Shown: positions 20,852-32,900 of the stretch, one piece after another
Layout: each line of letters starts with the position of its first letter
How positions within the stretch are numbered: the stretch's first letter is position 1
Origin: Prevotellaceae bacterium
Lineage (GTDB): Bacteria; Bacteroidota; Bacteroidia; Bacteroidales; UBA932
Length of the DNA stretch: 34,139 nucleotides
Assembly (NCBI GenBank): GCA_031290835.1
Contig: JAISLN010000167.1
Coordinates: 1-34,139, forward strand
Direction of reading: 5' to 3'
Program-made: the position numbers and the translations under genes
Notes under the pieces: generated by a model
What the model was told of the DNA's origin: nothing
What the model saw: the letters and a program-made list of their open reading frames with translations, nothing else
The model's database searches: none

Positions 20852-21171
20852 AATTAATCATATTTATAGTATTGATAATTCAATTATATTCATATTAGCA
20901 ATATAGATAAATAATAATTATTCATATTAGTAATATTAATAATTCTATTATATCAATATTAGTAATATATATAAACGGAAATTATTCATATTACTAATAT
21001 GAATAATTCTATTATATCCATATTAGCAATATGGACAAACTGAAATTATTCATATTAGTAATATGAATAATTCTATTATATCCATATTGACAATATAGAT
21101 AAACTAAAATTATTCATATTAGTAATATGAATAATTCTATTATATTTGTATTGATAATATGGATAATATCT
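20852..21171. repeat. 64-bp tandem repeat array of nested palindromes
   Basis: Units start at 20916, 20980, 21044 and 21108, exactly 64 bp apart, with a degenerate unit at 20852 and perhaps another near 20788. Each good unit holds two palindromes. One has 13-bp arms (ATTATTCATATTA) around one central base; the other has 8-bp arms (TCCATATT/AATATGGA) around three bases. The linkers (ATTCTATTATA, CAAACTGA) are conserved too. The array is almost free of G and C and fills the gap between the ATPase start and the trkH end. Confidence 0.92.
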
Positions 21172-21212: not shown

Positions 21213-22652
21213 TTATCTCCAGTAGCGATAGTAGAAAAGCATTAGCACGCCGTATATCTCCAAGCGGCCGACAAGCATGGCAACGGTGCATACTATTTTT
21301 GCAAAGATGGAAAATTCGCTGTAGTTGCCCAGCGAGTATATTTCACCGTAGCCCGGCCCAACGTTACCTAAGGAGGCTACGGCGGCGGAAAAGCTCGTCA
21401 TCAAGTCTAAGCCGGTGGGGAGCATCAGTAGCGTAACAATGAACGTTATCAGCATGTACAGCACGATGAAAAGGGATGCCGCCGAAACCACGTTTTCGTC
21501 CATAGAAATGCCTTTGAGCCGCACGGAAACAATGGCGTTTGGGTGCAGCATTTTGCGAATGTTTGCTACAAACGCCTTGTAGAATATGAGCACCCTGTCG
21601 GCTTTGATGCCGCCCGACGTGGAGCCAGCACAGCCGCATTGCAGCATGAAAAAAAAGGAAAGCGCAACGGCAAAGGGCGTCCACGAGGCGTTGCTCGCAA
21701 TTGCAAAGCCGGTAGTGCTCGCTATGGAGGTTACCTGAAATGCGGCCTCGCGAAAAGCTTGAAGCCATGACCTGTAATCTCCCGAGCTAATCAGGCTGAC
21801 GGTGGTAAGCAGCACCCCTACCGCTATTGAGCCGACAAAGTAGCGTACTACCGGAGAGTTGAACAGCGGCGTAAACTTTTTTATGATGGACACGTACAGC
21901 AACCCAAAGTTGATGCTCGAAATCACCATAAACACCATGAGAATACTCTCAATGAGCGGGCTGTTGTAGTACATGATGCTCGTGTTGCGGGTGCTAAATC
22001 CTCCGGTGGCGACCGTGGAGAATGCGTGGTTTACTGCGTCAAACAGGCTCATGCCTGCAATCCAAAGCAGCGTTGCGAGCGTTGCCGTAAGCCCCATGTA
22101 CACGCCGAGTATGACGCGCACAATCTTTTGCGCGCTGTAGTTGGCGTCTTCGTGCTTCACCGATGCCTGCGTGCGCGAAAGGCGAATTTTGGCGCTGCCG
22201 ACAGAGGGCAGCACAAGCAGCGTGAACACCACAACGCCAACTCCGCCAATCCAGTGTGTTGCCGAACGCCAGAAGAGCAGGCCACGCGGCAGCGCCTCTA
22301 TATCTTTGAGTATGCTTGCGCCGGTGGTGGTGTACCCCGATACGCTCTCGAACCATGCGTTGGAAACCGAAAAAACGCCGCCGTACAGGATATAGGGCAA
22401 CATGCCGAACAGGCAGCTGACGCACCACCCCAGCACAACAATCAGGTAGCCTTCGCGCGTGTTGATTTCTCTTTCGGGGGGAACAAATATGAAGGGGAAA
22501 ATCCCTACGATGAACGTAGTAACGGCCGACAGCAAAAGCGGCGTAAATGCCGCATCTTGATAAATGAAGGAAACGCCCGCCGAGATGCAGAGGAAAATGG
22601 AGTTGAGCAGTAGGGCAAGCCCAACGTAGCGGGCAACAACAGCAGGTCTCAT
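21213..22652 (-). CDS. trkH: TrkH-family potassium uptake channel subunit
   Basis: 479 residues, normal length. Inner-membrane K+ channel with four pseudo-repeats, each with a pore loop and selectivity residue region: 'SVSGYTTTGASIL', 'FSTVATGGFSTRN', 'TSIASTTGFAIA' and 'VASLGNVGPGYGE'. It also has 'WIGGVGVVVF' and 'CAGSTSGGIKADR', the latter the loop that gates the channel. TrkH normally works with a cytoplasmic TrkA (KTN) ring, which is not in the window. The start lies 4 bp after the stop of a HAMP-domain protein, implying coupled translation, and clpC lies just upstream of that. The downstream end abuts the palindromic repeat array. Confidence 0.95.
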   Translation of the reverse strand: MRPAVVARYVGLALLLNSIFLCISAGVSFIYQDAAFTPLLLSAVTTFIVGIFPFIFVPPEREINTREGYLIVVLGWCVSCLFGMLPYILYGGVFSVSNAWFESVSGYTTTGASILKDIEALPRGLLFWRSATHWIGGVGVVVFTLLVLPSVGSAKIRLSRTQASVKHEDANYSAQKIVRVILGVYMGLTATLATLLWIAGMSLFDAVNHAFSTVATGGFSTRNTSIMYYNSPLIESILMVFMVISSINFGLLYVSIIKKFTPLFNSPVVRYFVGSIAVGVLLTTVSLISSGDYRSWLQAFREAAFQVTSIASTTGFAIASNASWTPFAVALSFFFMLQCGCAGSTSGGIKADRVLIFYKAFVANIRKMLHPNAIVSVRLKGISMDENVVSAASLFIVLYMLITFIVTLLMLPTGLDLMTSFSAAVASLGNVGPGYGEIYSLGNYSEFSIFAKIVCTVAMLVGRLEIYGVLMLFYYRYWR

Positions 22653-22656
22653 TACT

Positions 22657-23439
22657 TTACGCTCTTTCCGTTTTGCCCGATTTTTTAACCTGCGCCACCA
22701 GCGCGGTAATGGCTTTGTTGAGCTGTCCCACTTCGTCGTCCGACTCCACGACGACCCGGAAAGGCGATTTGTACTCTACCGTATTTTCTATGGCGTGCGT
22801 TATTCTTATCAGCGGGTTGGCGAAGTAGTGCATGATAAAATAGTTGAACATGATAATGAGCACCACCCCTGCAAATACGGCAATGATGCAGGGTATTACC
22901 GTACGGTATCGATTTTGCTCTATGGCGGCTGCATTGTTGCGCAGCTCGTGCTGATTGAGCGCTACCATGTTGCCCAATTTTTGCATTAGCAAGTGGTATG
23001 CCGGTGCAAAGGTCATGAAGTAAGCTTCCGGACGTTTTTCGCTGTCTTCAATCAGGAGCAGGTCGTGCACAGCGGTGTGCAGGGGTACGAATAGATTTTC
23101 GATACCTGCCAAGGATTCGGAATTTCCCTGCATGTATAATTCCAGCTCGTTGGGATGCTCCAGCAGCTTTGACACCAGCGAATCGGATGAGGCCAGCTTT
23201 GCCATCGGCGCGTCGTTGTGGTTGAACGTGAACTCCTGCATAGCGTAGCTGACGCGCTGCACCATATTTAGCAGCTCCTGAGAGGCGGCAATGTTGTTCA
23301 CGTTGTTGGTAATTATTCCCGATACGGAGGTGCGCATGCGCACAAGCTCGTATATGGAAATAACGCCCGACACTGTGAGCAGCAGCATCAGCACCATAAA
23401 CCCAAGGGTTATTTTCCCCTTTATGCCTAACTTTTTCAT
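22657..23439 (-). CDS. Membrane sensor-like protein: helical extracytoplasmic domain plus HAMP, no output domain
   Basis: 260 residues. A basic start and first membrane helix (about 10-31) lead into an extracytoplasmic, mostly helical domain (about 35-178) like the four-helix bundle of chemoreceptors. A second membrane helix (about 181-203, 'VIPCIIAVFAGVVLIIMFNYFI') precedes a HAMP domain (about 204-255, 'ANPLIRITHAIENTV' and 'DEVGQLNKAITAL'). The chain stops there, with no kinase, receiver, cyclase or methyl-accepting part. No frameshifted output domain follows: trkH begins 4 bp later. It may signal directly to a partner, TrkH being the obvious candidate, or be a kinase that lost its end. 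It lies 29 bp after clpC on the same strand. Confidence 0.75.
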   Translation of the reverse strand: MKKLGIKGKITLGFMVLMLLLTVSGVISIYELVRMRTSVSGIITNNVNNIAASQELLNMVQRVSYAMQEFTFNHNDAPMAKLASSDSLVSKLLEHPNELELYMQGNSESLAGIENLFVPLHTAVHDLLLIEDSEKRPEAYFMTFAPAYHLLMQKLGNMVALNQHELRNNAAAIEQNRYRTVIPCIIAVFAGVVLIIMFNYFIMHYFANPLIRITHAIENTVEYKSPFRVVVESDDEVGQLNKAITALVAQVKKSGKTERA

Positions 23440-23468: not shown

Positions 23469-26099
23469 TCAGCTTGCGGCGATGGCGCTCGTGGGGAGGT
23501 TGACCGTCACGTTGTCTTTTGCCTCGTTCAGGGTTACGGTTATTTTTCGCTCATCCGTGCTGTTTTCGCTCATGCCGCTGCTGATAATCGCTTCTGATAT
23601 GTTATCTTCGAGGTAGCGCTGAATGGCGCGTTTGAGTGGACGTGCGCCAAATTCCAGGTCGTAACCTTTTTCGGCAATAAAATCTTTGGCTTCCTTGGAA
23701 ATTTCAATGGTGCAGCTCATTTTGCCGAGCCTGCCTACCAAATCCGTCAGCTCTATGTCGATAATTTTGCCAATATCCTCCTTGCTTAGCGTGTTGAAGG
23801 TAATAACCTCGTCCACGCGGTTGATAAACTCCGGCGTGAAGGTGCGCTTGAGCGCTTTTTGGATGATACCCTTAGCTTTTTCGTTAATGTCGGCAATGCT
23901 TTGCTCGGTCGCAAAGCCAATGCCTTTGCCGAAATCTTTTACTTCTCTTGAGCCAATGTTGGAGGTAATGATGATTATGGTGTTTTTAAAATCAACCCTA
24001 CGGCCAAGGCTGTCGGTGAGGTGACCTTCGTCGAGTACTTGCAGCAGCAAGTTGAACACGTCGGGGTGCGCCTTTTCTATTTCGTCCAGCAGCACTACGG
24101 AGTAGGGTTTTCTGCGCACTTTTTCGGTTAGCAAGCCGCCCTCTTCGTAGCCTACGTATCCGGGAGGCGCACCCACCAGCCGGCTCACCGAGAATTTCTC
24201 CATGTACTCGCTCATATCTATGCGGATGAGGTTGTCGGTTGTGTCGAACAGGTATTTTGCCAGCACCTTTGCCAGCAAGGTTTTTCCTACGCCGGTAGGG
24301 CCTAAAAAGATGAACGACCCGATTGGCTTGTTGGGGTCTTTCAGCCCTACGCGGTTTCGCTGAATGGCTTTTACGACTTTCTCCACCGCCTCGTCCTGCC
24401 CAATTACGCTGCCTTTAATGGATTCGCCCATTTTGAGCAGCTTTGCTCCTTCGGCCTGCGCTACGCGCTGCACGGGAACGTTGGTCATCATTGCCACCAC
24501 TTCGGCCACCTTATCTTCGTCCACCACTTCGCGGTTTTCCGTAAGGTTGCTTTGCCATTTGTGCTGCGCAGCCGACAGGAGCTCCTGTATCCGGCGCTCT
24601 TCGTCGCGGTGAGCCGCCGCCAGCTCAAACTTTTGGTTTTCCACAGCGGACTTCTTTTCCCGTACAATTGTCTCCAGCTTTTTTTCCATCTCCGTGATTT
24701 CATCGGGAACGGAAATATTGGAGAGGTGCACGCGCGATCCCGCCTCGTCCAGCGCATCTACCGCCTTGTCCGGCAGGTAGCGCTCCGAGACGTATCGCTG
24801 CGTGAGCAGCACGCAGGCGCGGATAGCTTCGGGCGTATAGATTACGTTGTGGTGGTCTTCGTAGCGCTCCTTTATGTTGTTCAGGATTTCGATGGTTTCA
24901 TCAGCGGTGGTAGGCTCTACCATGATGCGCTGAAAGCGTCGCTCCAGCGCACCGTCTTTTTCGATATATTCCCGGTATTCGTTGAGCGTAGTTGCCCCCA
25001 CGCACTGTATTTCGCCGCGAGCCAGCGCGGGCTTTAGCATGTTGGCGGCGTCGAGCGCACCCGAAGCGCCTCCTGCGCCGATGAGCGTGTGAATTTCGTC
25101 GATGAAGAGAATAATGTGCGAATTTTTTTGCAGCTCGTTCAGGATAGCTTTCATTCGCTCCTCAAACTGTCCGCGATACTTGGTGCCCGCCACCACTGCG
25201 CCCACATCCAGCGTCATTACCCGCTTTCCGAAGAGCACGCGCGAAACCTGCCGGTGGGCTATGCGGAGCGCCAGCCCCTCTACGATGGCGCTTTTTCCCA
25301 CGCCGGGTTCTCCGATAAGGATGGGATTATTTTTTTTGCGGCGGCTGAGAATTTGTGCCAGCCTGTCAATTTCCTTTTCGCGCCCCACCACCGGATCGAG
25401 CAGATTTTGTTCGGCGGCCTTGGTCAAGTCCGTGCCGTAGCTGTCGAGCGCGGGGGTATCAGACGTCGTTTTGCCGCCGATTTTGTACTGATGCTGCGGC
25501 GATGTATGGGCAGGCGCCGTGGGCGTATTGATGTACCTTAAATCGTCGTCGTCATCATCGTCGTCGTCGTCGTCGTCATCGTCATCTTCTTCGTAAGCGT
25601 TGTCGCTTCCGCCGCTGTTGTTGCTTTTTTTGTTGCTGATTAGGTTTTCACCGTAAGGCCTATTGCTTTTGTCCGTGAAAGCGTTTATCACCCTTTGGTA
25701 GTTGACATTTTGCTTTTGCAGCAGCTGCGTTACGATGCTTGAGTCGTCTTTGAGGATAGCCAAGAGCAGGTGAATGGTATCCACCTCGTTTGTTTTTAGC
25801 GAAAGCGCTTCGAGGTGCTGCATTTTCAGCGCACGCTCTACCGACTTGTAAAACAGCAATTTGTCTATATCCCTTACGCTCAGCTCATCGTGGCTTCTGA
25901 CCTTTTCTTCAATCGCCTCTTTCAGCCGCTCCAGATTTACCCCAAGCGAGGAGAGCACATCCAGCGCCGAGTTGTTTCCGTCCCTTATCATTCCCAGCAC
26001 GAGGTGTTCTGTGCCGACGGTCTGATTTCCCAAGCGCAACGCTTCTTCCTTGCTAAAGTTAATCACGTCCGTCAGCTTCTGTGTTGAATTTGTATTCAT
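23469..26099 (-). CDS. clpC: Clp protease ATP-binding subunit ClpC
   Basis: 876 residues. Hsp100 unfoldase that feeds proteins to ClpP. The N-terminal double Clp repeat spans about 1-150 ('[20 protein letters not shown]'). The linker to D1 holds about 15 consecutive Asp. D1 has Walker A '[13 protein letters not shown]' and Walker B '[15 protein letters not shown]'. The middle UVR-like helix ('[18 protein letters not shown]') marks ClpC rather than ClpB. D2 has '[14 protein letters not shown]', '[15 protein letters not shown]' and a C-terminal ClpB_D2-small domain. clpP is not in the window. Divergent from gyrA across 309 bp containing an inverted repeat. No CtsR or McsAB genes are nearby. Confidence 0.96.
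25542..25586. repeat. Trinucleotide repeat coding for poly-Asp in ClpC
   Basis: Fifteen consecutive Asp codons, seen on the plus strand as GTC/ATC triplets, flanked by two Glu codons. Runs of five or six identical triplets make slippage plausible, while the interspersed ATC triplets would slow it. Any change stays in frame. Confidence 0.9.
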
Positions 26100-29021: not shown

Positions 29022-29600
29022 ATGCAAATTTCCAAAAACAAGGTAGTTTCCCTGTCCTACCAGCTCACCGTTGACGGTGATGTGGTGGACAAGGCAACAT
29101 CCCAAAATCCGCTTTCATTCATATTCGGCAGCGGCATGTTGCTTCCCAAATTTGAGGCAAATATTGAGGGCAAGCGCACCGGCGACGGCTTTAAGTTTAC
29201 GCTTACGCCCGCCGAAGGCTACGGCGAAGTTGATGAAAAAAACATCAACGAATTTCCGTTGGACGCTTTTATGGTAGATGGGCAGCTCGAAGAGGGCTTG
29301 CTGGCGGAGGGCGCTGTTGTACCCATGCAGGATAGCGAGGGAAATGTTTTTAGCGCTACCGTGCTGGAGGTAAAGGAAAATTCGGTGGAGCTTGACTTCA
29401 ACCATCCGTTGGCGGGCATGGAGTTGAGCTTTGAGGGGCAGATTGTTGAAGTGCGCAACGCCACCGAAAAAGAGCTCGCCAAAGGCTTGGGCGGCGGCGG
29501 TTGCTGCTGTTGCGGCGAGGACGGCGACGACGATTGCTGCTGCGACGACGACGATTGCTGCTGCGATGAAGATGATAGCTGCAGCTGCGGACGCCACTGA
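29022..29600 (+). CDS. SlyD-like FKBP peptidyl-prolyl isomerase with Asp/Cys-rich tail
   Basis: 192 residues. The FKBP domain with its chaperone insert covers about 1-150: 'KVVSLSYQLTVDGDVVDKA', 'PLSFIFGSGMLLPKFEANIEG', 'FTLTPAEGYGEVDE', 'FNHPLAGMELSFEG'. SlyD proteins catalyse proline isomerisation, fold clients and bind metals through a His/Cys-rich tail. Here the tail after 'GLGGGG' consists almost only of Cys and acidic residues ('CCCCGEDGDDDCCCDDDD', about 12 Cys in all) and ends 'CSCGRH'. The DNA shows a 21-base internal duplication. Metal binding is likely; which metal is unknown. It lies 75 bp after gyrA and 53 bp before tpiA. Confidence 0.92.
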   Translation: MQISKNKVVSLSYQLTVDGDVVDKATSQNPLSFIFGSGMLLPKFEANIEGKRTGDGFKFTLTPAEGYGEVDEKNINEFPLDAFMVDGQLEEGLLAEGAVVPMQDSEGNVFSATVLEVKENSVELDFNHPLAGMELSFEGQIVEVRNATEKELAKGLGGGGCCCCGEDGDDDCCCDDDDCCCDEDDSCSCGRH

Positions 29601-32758: not shown

Positions 32759-32900
32759 AATTCTGTAATTCTGTAATTCTGTAATTCTGTAAATCTTTAT
32801 TTGTAAATTCTGTAAATTCTGAAATTCTGTAAATTTTTATTTGTAAATTCTGTAAATTCTGAAATTCTGTAAATCTTTATTTATAAATTCTGTAAATCTT
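32759..32900. repeat. 8-bp and 40-bp tandem repeats upstream of trpS
   Basis: AATTCTGT repeats four times without error (32759-32790). Then a 40-bp unit (starting AAATCTTTATTTGTAAATTC) occurs at 32791-32830 and 32831-32870 with one difference, and partly at 32871-32900. The 40-bp unit is itself built from variants of the same AATTCTG word, so the array probably grew by stepwise duplication. Ends 12 bp before the trpS ATG. Confidence 0.92.

Follow-up and report, generated by a model that had tools for sequence, protein, structure and literature searches.

HAMP modules are known to act on kinases, chemoreceptors, and further enzymes of the cytoplasm. The prototype of the HAMP domain, Af1503 of Archaeoglobus fulgidus, is described as a non-signalling transmembrane protein without input and output domains (PMC3585426). 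Among potassium uptake systems, the TrkH channel is gated by its partner TrkA in response to ATP/ADP (PMC6987127), and the KdpFABC pump is controlled by the KdpD kinase both transcriptionally and by inhibitory phosphorylation (PMC11018627). Here we analyse a locus of a Prevotellaceae bacterium in which a small membrane sensor ending in a HAMP-like segment is encoded just before trkH; the contig carrying it (JAISLN010000167.1, 34,139 nucleotides) is called the window throughout. We found no description of a TrkH-sensor pair in the open-access literature, a search that did not cover subscription papers and preprints.

The Sensor and Its Domains

The gene begins with an ATG and ends in a stop codon at 22657-22659; its product is organised as follows.

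22657..23439, minus strand: stand-alone four-helix-bundle/HAMP membrane sensor, 260 aa (open reading frame, 26 homologues in relatives, each upstream of trkH, and family profile)
23347..23415, minus strand: TM1, about residues 9-31 (alignments, conservation, hydropathy)
22906..23346, minus strand: helical periplasmic domain, residues 32-178 (4HB_MCP_1 match, AlphaFold2 helices, Foldseek hits)
22828..22905, minus strand: TM2, residues 179-204 (conservation analysis)
22684..22827, minus strand: HAMP-like segment, residues 205-252, with P209 and D235-E236...L240 (Pfam in relatives, motif conservation)

Taken alone, the window protein gives weak Pfam evidence, since its matches to 4HB_MCP_1 (1e-5) and HAMP (0.031; 15.1 bits against a cut-off of 25) both fall short of the curated thresholds. 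The domain identity rests on the family as a whole: in a set of 31 relatives 4HB_MCP_1 matches every member (best 1.3e-12) and HAMP matches 17 (E <0.1, best 3.5e-9), while the hallmarks of HAMP are retained over 112 members, with P209 in 100%, D235 in 99%, E236 in 96%, and L240 in 96%. The sensor has the motifs expected of a HAMP domain, namely a proline after TM2 and DExxxL before the second helix, and it satisfies the definition of a 4HB_MCP receptor, a periplasmic four-helix bundle flanked by membrane helices (31/31 in Pfam, plus fold matches in the PDB). The AlphaFold2 model of the single chain is all-helical with long helices (pLDDT 77.7, pTM 0.49), and its top PDB matches are four-helix-bundle receptors, namely YvaQ-McpB (8.6e-4, TM-score 0.61) followed by NarQ and MCP2201. 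In the alignments K9, L21, and E31 of TM1 are almost invariant and TM2 follows the family consensus R-x-IMPGIIAI...LFNYFI; the periplasmic domain is the folded part with the greatest variability.

Only eight residues follow the HAMP-like segment of the window sensor, which stops about 24 residues past the DE motif with no C-terminal MCP signalling domain and no Pfam match to HisKA or HATPase_c. An output domain after this segment is likewise absent in 112/112 aligned sensors, the C terminus lying 16-44 residues (median 24) beyond the conserved D. The initial annotation, which had described a 260-residue input half of a receptor (membrane helix, helical extracytoplasmic part, second membrane helix, and HAMP) devoid of output and ending 4 bp from the start of trkH, is therefore confirmed by the Pfam matches of relatives, the motifs, and the model, and the coordinates of the spacer given below agree with it.

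Could such a protein simply be the remnant of a histidine kinase or chemoreceptor in decay? Its homology with the first 260 residues of kinases is clear, and the annotation had accepted that a full-length histidine kinase at this locus in relatives would overturn its interpretation. Instead, the relatives found at trkH are stand-alone and form a group separate from the kinases. A search with the window sensor recovered 26 stand-alone homologues in 61 relatives, mostly of about 250-280 residues, and when 393 genomes of the order were searched with the sensor profile, 52 stand-alone copies in 29 families were recovered at 141-341 bits, with full-length relatives at 93 bits or below. Overall, stand-alone homologues score at least 140 bits with open reading frames of about 237-350 aa, against at most 112 bits for kinase relatives of 600-630 aa. 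With over 110 intact members of similar size, this wide gap in score, and a history in common with TrkH (see below), decay is already contradicted by conservation and we give it virtually no credence; the reading as a truncated kinase was rejected on the same grounds. Judged by length and score, the sensor is a stand-alone family and not a broken kinase. Searches of plasmid and phage proteins for it found nothing.

Linkage with trkH

The genes surrounding the sensor comprise the following features.

21213..22652, minus strand: TrkH potassium channel/transporter of the sensor-linked subfamily (TrkH-S), 479 aa (Pfam, structure match, subfamily clade and profile gap)
22494..22499, minus strand: F52-P53 of TrkH, putative contact site (comparison of sensor-linked, trkA-linked, and sensor-less TrkH)
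22653..22656, minus strand: 4-bp spacer from the sensor stop to the trkH start (many relatives have a 4-bp overlap instead)
23469..26099, minus strand: clpC-type AAA+ gene, separated from the sensor by 29 bp on its upstream side (neighbourhood comparison)

The identity of TrkH, whose ATG lies at 22652 on the minus strand, is secure: it matches Pfam TrkH (PF02386) at 1.7e-58 and the Vibrio parahaemolyticus TrkH structures over its full length at 3.5e-80 (4j9u over 6-479), and it possesses the C-terminal GR motif with G462-R463 invariant, thus meeting the criteria of the TrkH family.

All 26 homologues in relatives immediately precede trkH and share its strand; 6/6 members in another class likewise precede trkH, and 49 of 50 further loci in the order adjoin it, the remaining one (L127) stopping at a contig edge. 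Among 65 loci of named genomes, scanned with a profile built from a subset of the diverse alignment, trkH is immediately downstream of the sensor in 61. Of the other four, L211 has a single intervening gene, L208 runs into a contig end, L253 contains a masked stretch, and L254 is a decayed fragment. Locus L251, marked as sensor-less in the tree, does possess the sensor and was so marked solely because its open frame extends upstream. By the named records, the pair spans Bacteroidales and relatives (Marinilabilia salmonicolor, Imperialibacter), Melioribacter/Ignavibacteria, Caldithrix, Desulfobacterales, Syntrophales, and Acidobacteria; many of these loci come from metagenome-assembled genomes, and each taxon label is only as reliable as its bin.

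The counts above start from the sensor, and the question was therefore reversed by picking loci on TrkH alone. A profile of sensor-linked TrkH (A2), which gives at least 593 bits to its own subfamily and at most 465 bits to trkA-linked TrkH, retrieved 50 subfamily proteins from the same 393 genomes in an independent search, and 50/50 have the sensor directly upstream. Conversely, sensors without a subfamily TrkH match occur in just two of these genomes, one at a contig edge (G205) and one in an assembly 60% complete (G349). The linkage of sensor and trkH is far beyond chance, and the association is reciprocal, being conserved in both directions. The survey of trkH neighbourhoods that the initial annotation had proposed thus found the small sensor to be conserved, and the lack of any conserved linkage, which would have refuted its idea, was not encountered from either starting point. 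The spacing is equally tight: in 114 unique pairs the genes overlap by exactly 4 bp in 40 and lie within -20 to +35 bp of each other in 108, a pattern which we count as support for the explanation favoured below insofar as it indicates translational coupling of sensor and trkH.

The clpC-type gene was ruled out as a member of the conserved unit, its linkage being confined to the window's own genus. Elsewhere in the window, an AT-rich tandem array lies just downstream of trkH (20852-21167; 64-bp unit, 4.6 copies, half-unit of 32 bp) and another precedes a tryptophanyl-tRNA synthetase-like gene (32759-32899; 40-bp unit, 3.3 copies, 94% matches), while 29022-29600 encodes a FKBP/SlyD-like protein with a C-terminal tail unusually rich in Cys and Asp (GGGGCCCCGEDGDDDCCCDDDDCCC...), which is probably metal-binding.

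Shared History and Loss of the Sensor

Sensor-linked genes fall into a single well-supported clade of the TrkH tree, distinct from trkA-linked TrkH. The pairs of Desulfobacterales, Syntrophales, and Acidobacteria cluster in the trees of both proteins, weakly in that of the sensor (SH-aLRT 67), and the mirror-tree correlation reaches r = 0.81 against a label-permutation maximum of 0.15, relatedness not being controlled. The sensor and TrkH trees, as reconstructed here, agree, and it follows from the common grouping and the distance correlation that the pair, which is co-transmitted across phyla, has most likely moved as a unit.

The exceptions are instructive. Of 29 genomes in the window's family that have this TrkH, 23 carry the pair and six lack the sensor. 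In one of the same genus (G002), the interval between clpC and trkH reads ATGAAAAGGTTAGGGATTCTGGGAAAAATAACCCGTAAAGCGGAGGGAATGTAA and contains a 17-codon in-frame remnant (L091:2939-2992), which joins the sensor's initial residues to an end resembling its tail, next to an intact TrkH; as read from the nucleotides, this is a clean and recent in-frame deletion of the sensor gene. The sensor is dispensable to the persistence of the TrkH gene, and because TrkH persists without it, the role of a regulator fits better than that of an essential subunit. At the level of residues, F52-P53 of TrkH is conserved in sensor-linked proteins and differs in trkA-linked ones; F52 in particular is 94% conserved in the subfamily but altered in 4/6 sensor-less TrkH of the window's family, which represent few branches. 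This makes F52-P53 a candidate site of contact with the sensor, on evidence that is suggestive only.

Kinase Relatives and the Pattern of Constraint

The nearest full-length relatives of the sensor that were tested carry, by Pfam, HAMP, HisKA, and HATPase, in some cases with PAS after HAMP, and are neighboured by a sigma-54 response regulator; regarding these proteins of 600 aa as MCPs was wrong for those tested, which are HAMP-(PAS)-HisKA-HATPase kinases. A potassium transporter, be it TrkH, KtrB plus KtrA, Kup, or KimA, adjoins 11 of 17 inspected kinase loci, which were chosen from the high scorers and hence do not provide a population estimate; one KimA neighbour (L259) was identified at 6.7e-66 against the KimA structure. 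The context is consistent in its theme and places this sensory module in potassium transport.

Several of these loci deserve description in their own right. Genes for KimA-type potassium importers lie beside kinases with the same sensor module at L259:1442-5337, L260, L268, and L269, the first confirmed and the others recognised by resemblance. At L265:1318-4289, a stand-alone 4HB-HAMP sensor of 321 aa comes after Kup, and a response-regulator-like reading frame and a kinase-like fragment lie just upstream. Stand-alone HAMP-type sensor relatives of 297-299 aa are found between kdpC and kdpD at L266:4858-5751 and L267:3228-4127, where they could possibly supply KdpD or the Kdp pump with an additional input. 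Finally, L255:2727-9350, L256, and L257 are operons with a response regulator, a 4HB-HAMP kinase, a divergent stand-alone sensor, and TrkH, near which occur KtrB (L255, L256), KtrA (L255), and an antiporter-like protein; these operons thus contain a second, distant sensor-TrkH pairing inside a kinase operon.

Given such relatives, the sensor might have a separate kinase, or another protein of the cytoplasm, as its target and be merely co-transcribed with trkH, as would befit a domain whose relatives are the input half of true histidine kinases adjoining potassium transporters, and whose stand-alone versions neighbour kinases in L255-L257 and sit between kdpC and kdpD in L266 and L267. The linkage, however, is to trkH and not to a kinase gene, and Pfam profiles detect no match to HAMP, MCPsignal, or KdpD in the window's own genome, in which no second copy of the sensor domain was found either. 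This genome does yield five HisKA kinase matches, and the search for partners was a profile search in an assembly 87% complete with a HAMP model that misses the sensor itself. We consider signalling to a separate kinase improbable.

Where, then, does selection act on the sensor? In 48 diverse sensors, TM2 shows an identity of 0.41 against 0.27 for HAMP, whereas 13 diverse kinase relatives show the reverse, 0.16 for TM2 against 0.39 for HAMP, and the resampled ranges of the differences do not overlap. The kinase set consists of more diverse paralogues, one of them poorly aligned; the reversal nevertheless lies within proteins. Constraint shifted to the membrane helices is what would be expected if kinases read the HAMP domain and a TrkH partner reads the membrane helices.

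Conservation that peaks in the membrane helices would also suit a factor for the assembly, insertion, or stability of this TrkH subfamily rather than a signal transducer, especially one that is always encoded just before TrkH and often overlaps it by 4 bp; conserved operons can, after all, reflect co-expression or assembly instead of regulation. Yet the combination of a variable periplasmic bundle with retained HAMP motifs resembles a receptor, and TrkH persists without the sensor in six relatives, one of which has the in-frame deletion. A role in assembly is accordingly rather unlikely in our estimate.

The Place of TrkA

Where a family lacks the sensor, trkA is typically located just upstream of trkH, while at sensor loci it was never found inside the 6-kb flanks examined. 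The idea that the sensor has replaced TrkA was rejected, because TrkA is encoded in 51/52 sensor-positive genomes outside the window's family, several of which have no Trk-type TrkH other than the sensor-linked one. The window's genome itself has trkA on another contig (L106, contig C100), and some other genomes possess trkA-linked and sensor-linked trkH together; both TrkA and TrkH went undetected in six relatives, several of them incomplete. Since TrkA persists, the most likely role of the sensor is to supplement TrkA gating and not to substitute for TrkA.

The same evidence leaves room for a variant in which the sensor acts on TrkA instead of TrkH, its HAMP segment touching the cytosolic TrkA ring and shifting the ATP/ADP gating equilibrium. 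TrkA is, indeed, the known gating partner of TrkH (PMC6987127), and its presence in nearly all sensor-positive genomes outside the family, including those in which only the sensor-linked TrkH is available, speaks for this variant. On the other side, trkA lies outside the 6-kb flanks in all loci examined and so is not inherited within the linked pair, and in the sensor family conservation is lower in the HAMP segment than in the membrane helices. We judge TrkA to be an unlikely target, but not a negligible one.

Proposed Function

The pairing with trkH conserved across several phyla suggests that the target of this receptor is the channel itself. We favour, with a probability of roughly 0.6, the interpretation that the protein is a homodimeric membrane sensor with the TrkH channel as its effector. 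The initial annotation had supposed a separate partner protein, with the potassium channel as the tightest genomic neighbour, and this claim gains support from the two-way linkage and the constraint on membrane helices, while contact and gating have not been shown. We also count in favour of the interpretation the common history of the two genes, the potassium transporter genes beside kinase and stand-alone relatives, and the lack of Pfam-level HAMP, MCP, or KdpD partners in the window's genome.

By this interpretation, the sensor would form a homodimer in the membrane, its periplasmic four-helix bundle reading an external cue tied to potassium or to the ionic or osmotic state. The resulting change would travel via TM1 and TM2, which are presumed to pack against TrkH inside the membrane, and would bias the gating of TrkH; close to the TrkH-TrkA face, the HAMP segment would serve as a short switch on the cytoplasmic side. 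TrkA, encoded elsewhere, would still provide ATP/ADP gating from the cytosol. Dimerisation, physical contact, the gating effect and its sign, and the signal or ligand are inferences for which there are no physical or functional data. An AlphaFold2 model of a sensor-TrkH read-through chain, built from 19 natural in-frame read-through neighbours plus unpaired rows, reached a pTM of 0.79, which lends mild support when compared with the value of about 0.6-0.65 that we estimate for independently placed halves; the model has no control pair, a short forced linker, and no coordinates. Against a sensor subunit speaks, besides the caveat on operons mentioned above, the dispensability of the sensor in 6/29 TrkH genes of the family.

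A broader proposition is that an ion channel can be the direct effector of a HAMP receptor. The 4HB-HAMP sensor would then inform the transporter directly, through the membrane and with no kinase involved, about potassium or the ionic state outside and, to judge by the related loci, would belong to a wider set of such sensors encoded beside genes of the Trk, Ktr, Kup, KimA, and Kdp systems. This we advance only tentatively. Were it true, the pairing with a potassium channel would represent a new output for the HAMP signalling module and would explain how the Trk system could respond to outside conditions besides ATP/ADP. It would also provide a bacterial sensor-gated channel testable by patch clamp, and a handle on what is detected by the 4HB-HAMP sensors of kinases located beside Trk, Ktr, Kup, and KimA genes.

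Comparison with Known Systems

The sensor shares with the 4HB-HAMP chemoreceptors and sensor kinases of the Tar/Tsr, NarQ, and KinB types the same input half, consisting of membrane helix, helical bundle, second membrane helix, and HAMP; it differs from them in lacking a kinase, MCP, or other output and in having its conservation on the membrane helices, not on HAMP. Like Af1503, the sensor is a membrane protein that ends in HAMP without an output domain, but no partner is named for Af1503 in the source passages, whereas the partner gene of the sensor is fixed across phyla. In KdpD there is already a membrane sensor that acts directly on a potassium uptake system; it is, however, a kinase with catalytic domains, of which the sensor has none, and Pfam profiles did not find it in the window's genome. 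With the TrkH-TrkA system of Vibrio parahaemolyticus (PMC6987127) there are in common a TrkH of the same family over its full length and a TrkA encoded in the genome. As differences, the window trkH has no adjoining trkA, its product belongs to a clade separate from trkA-linked TrkH, and the usual upstream place of trkA is taken by a membrane sensor.
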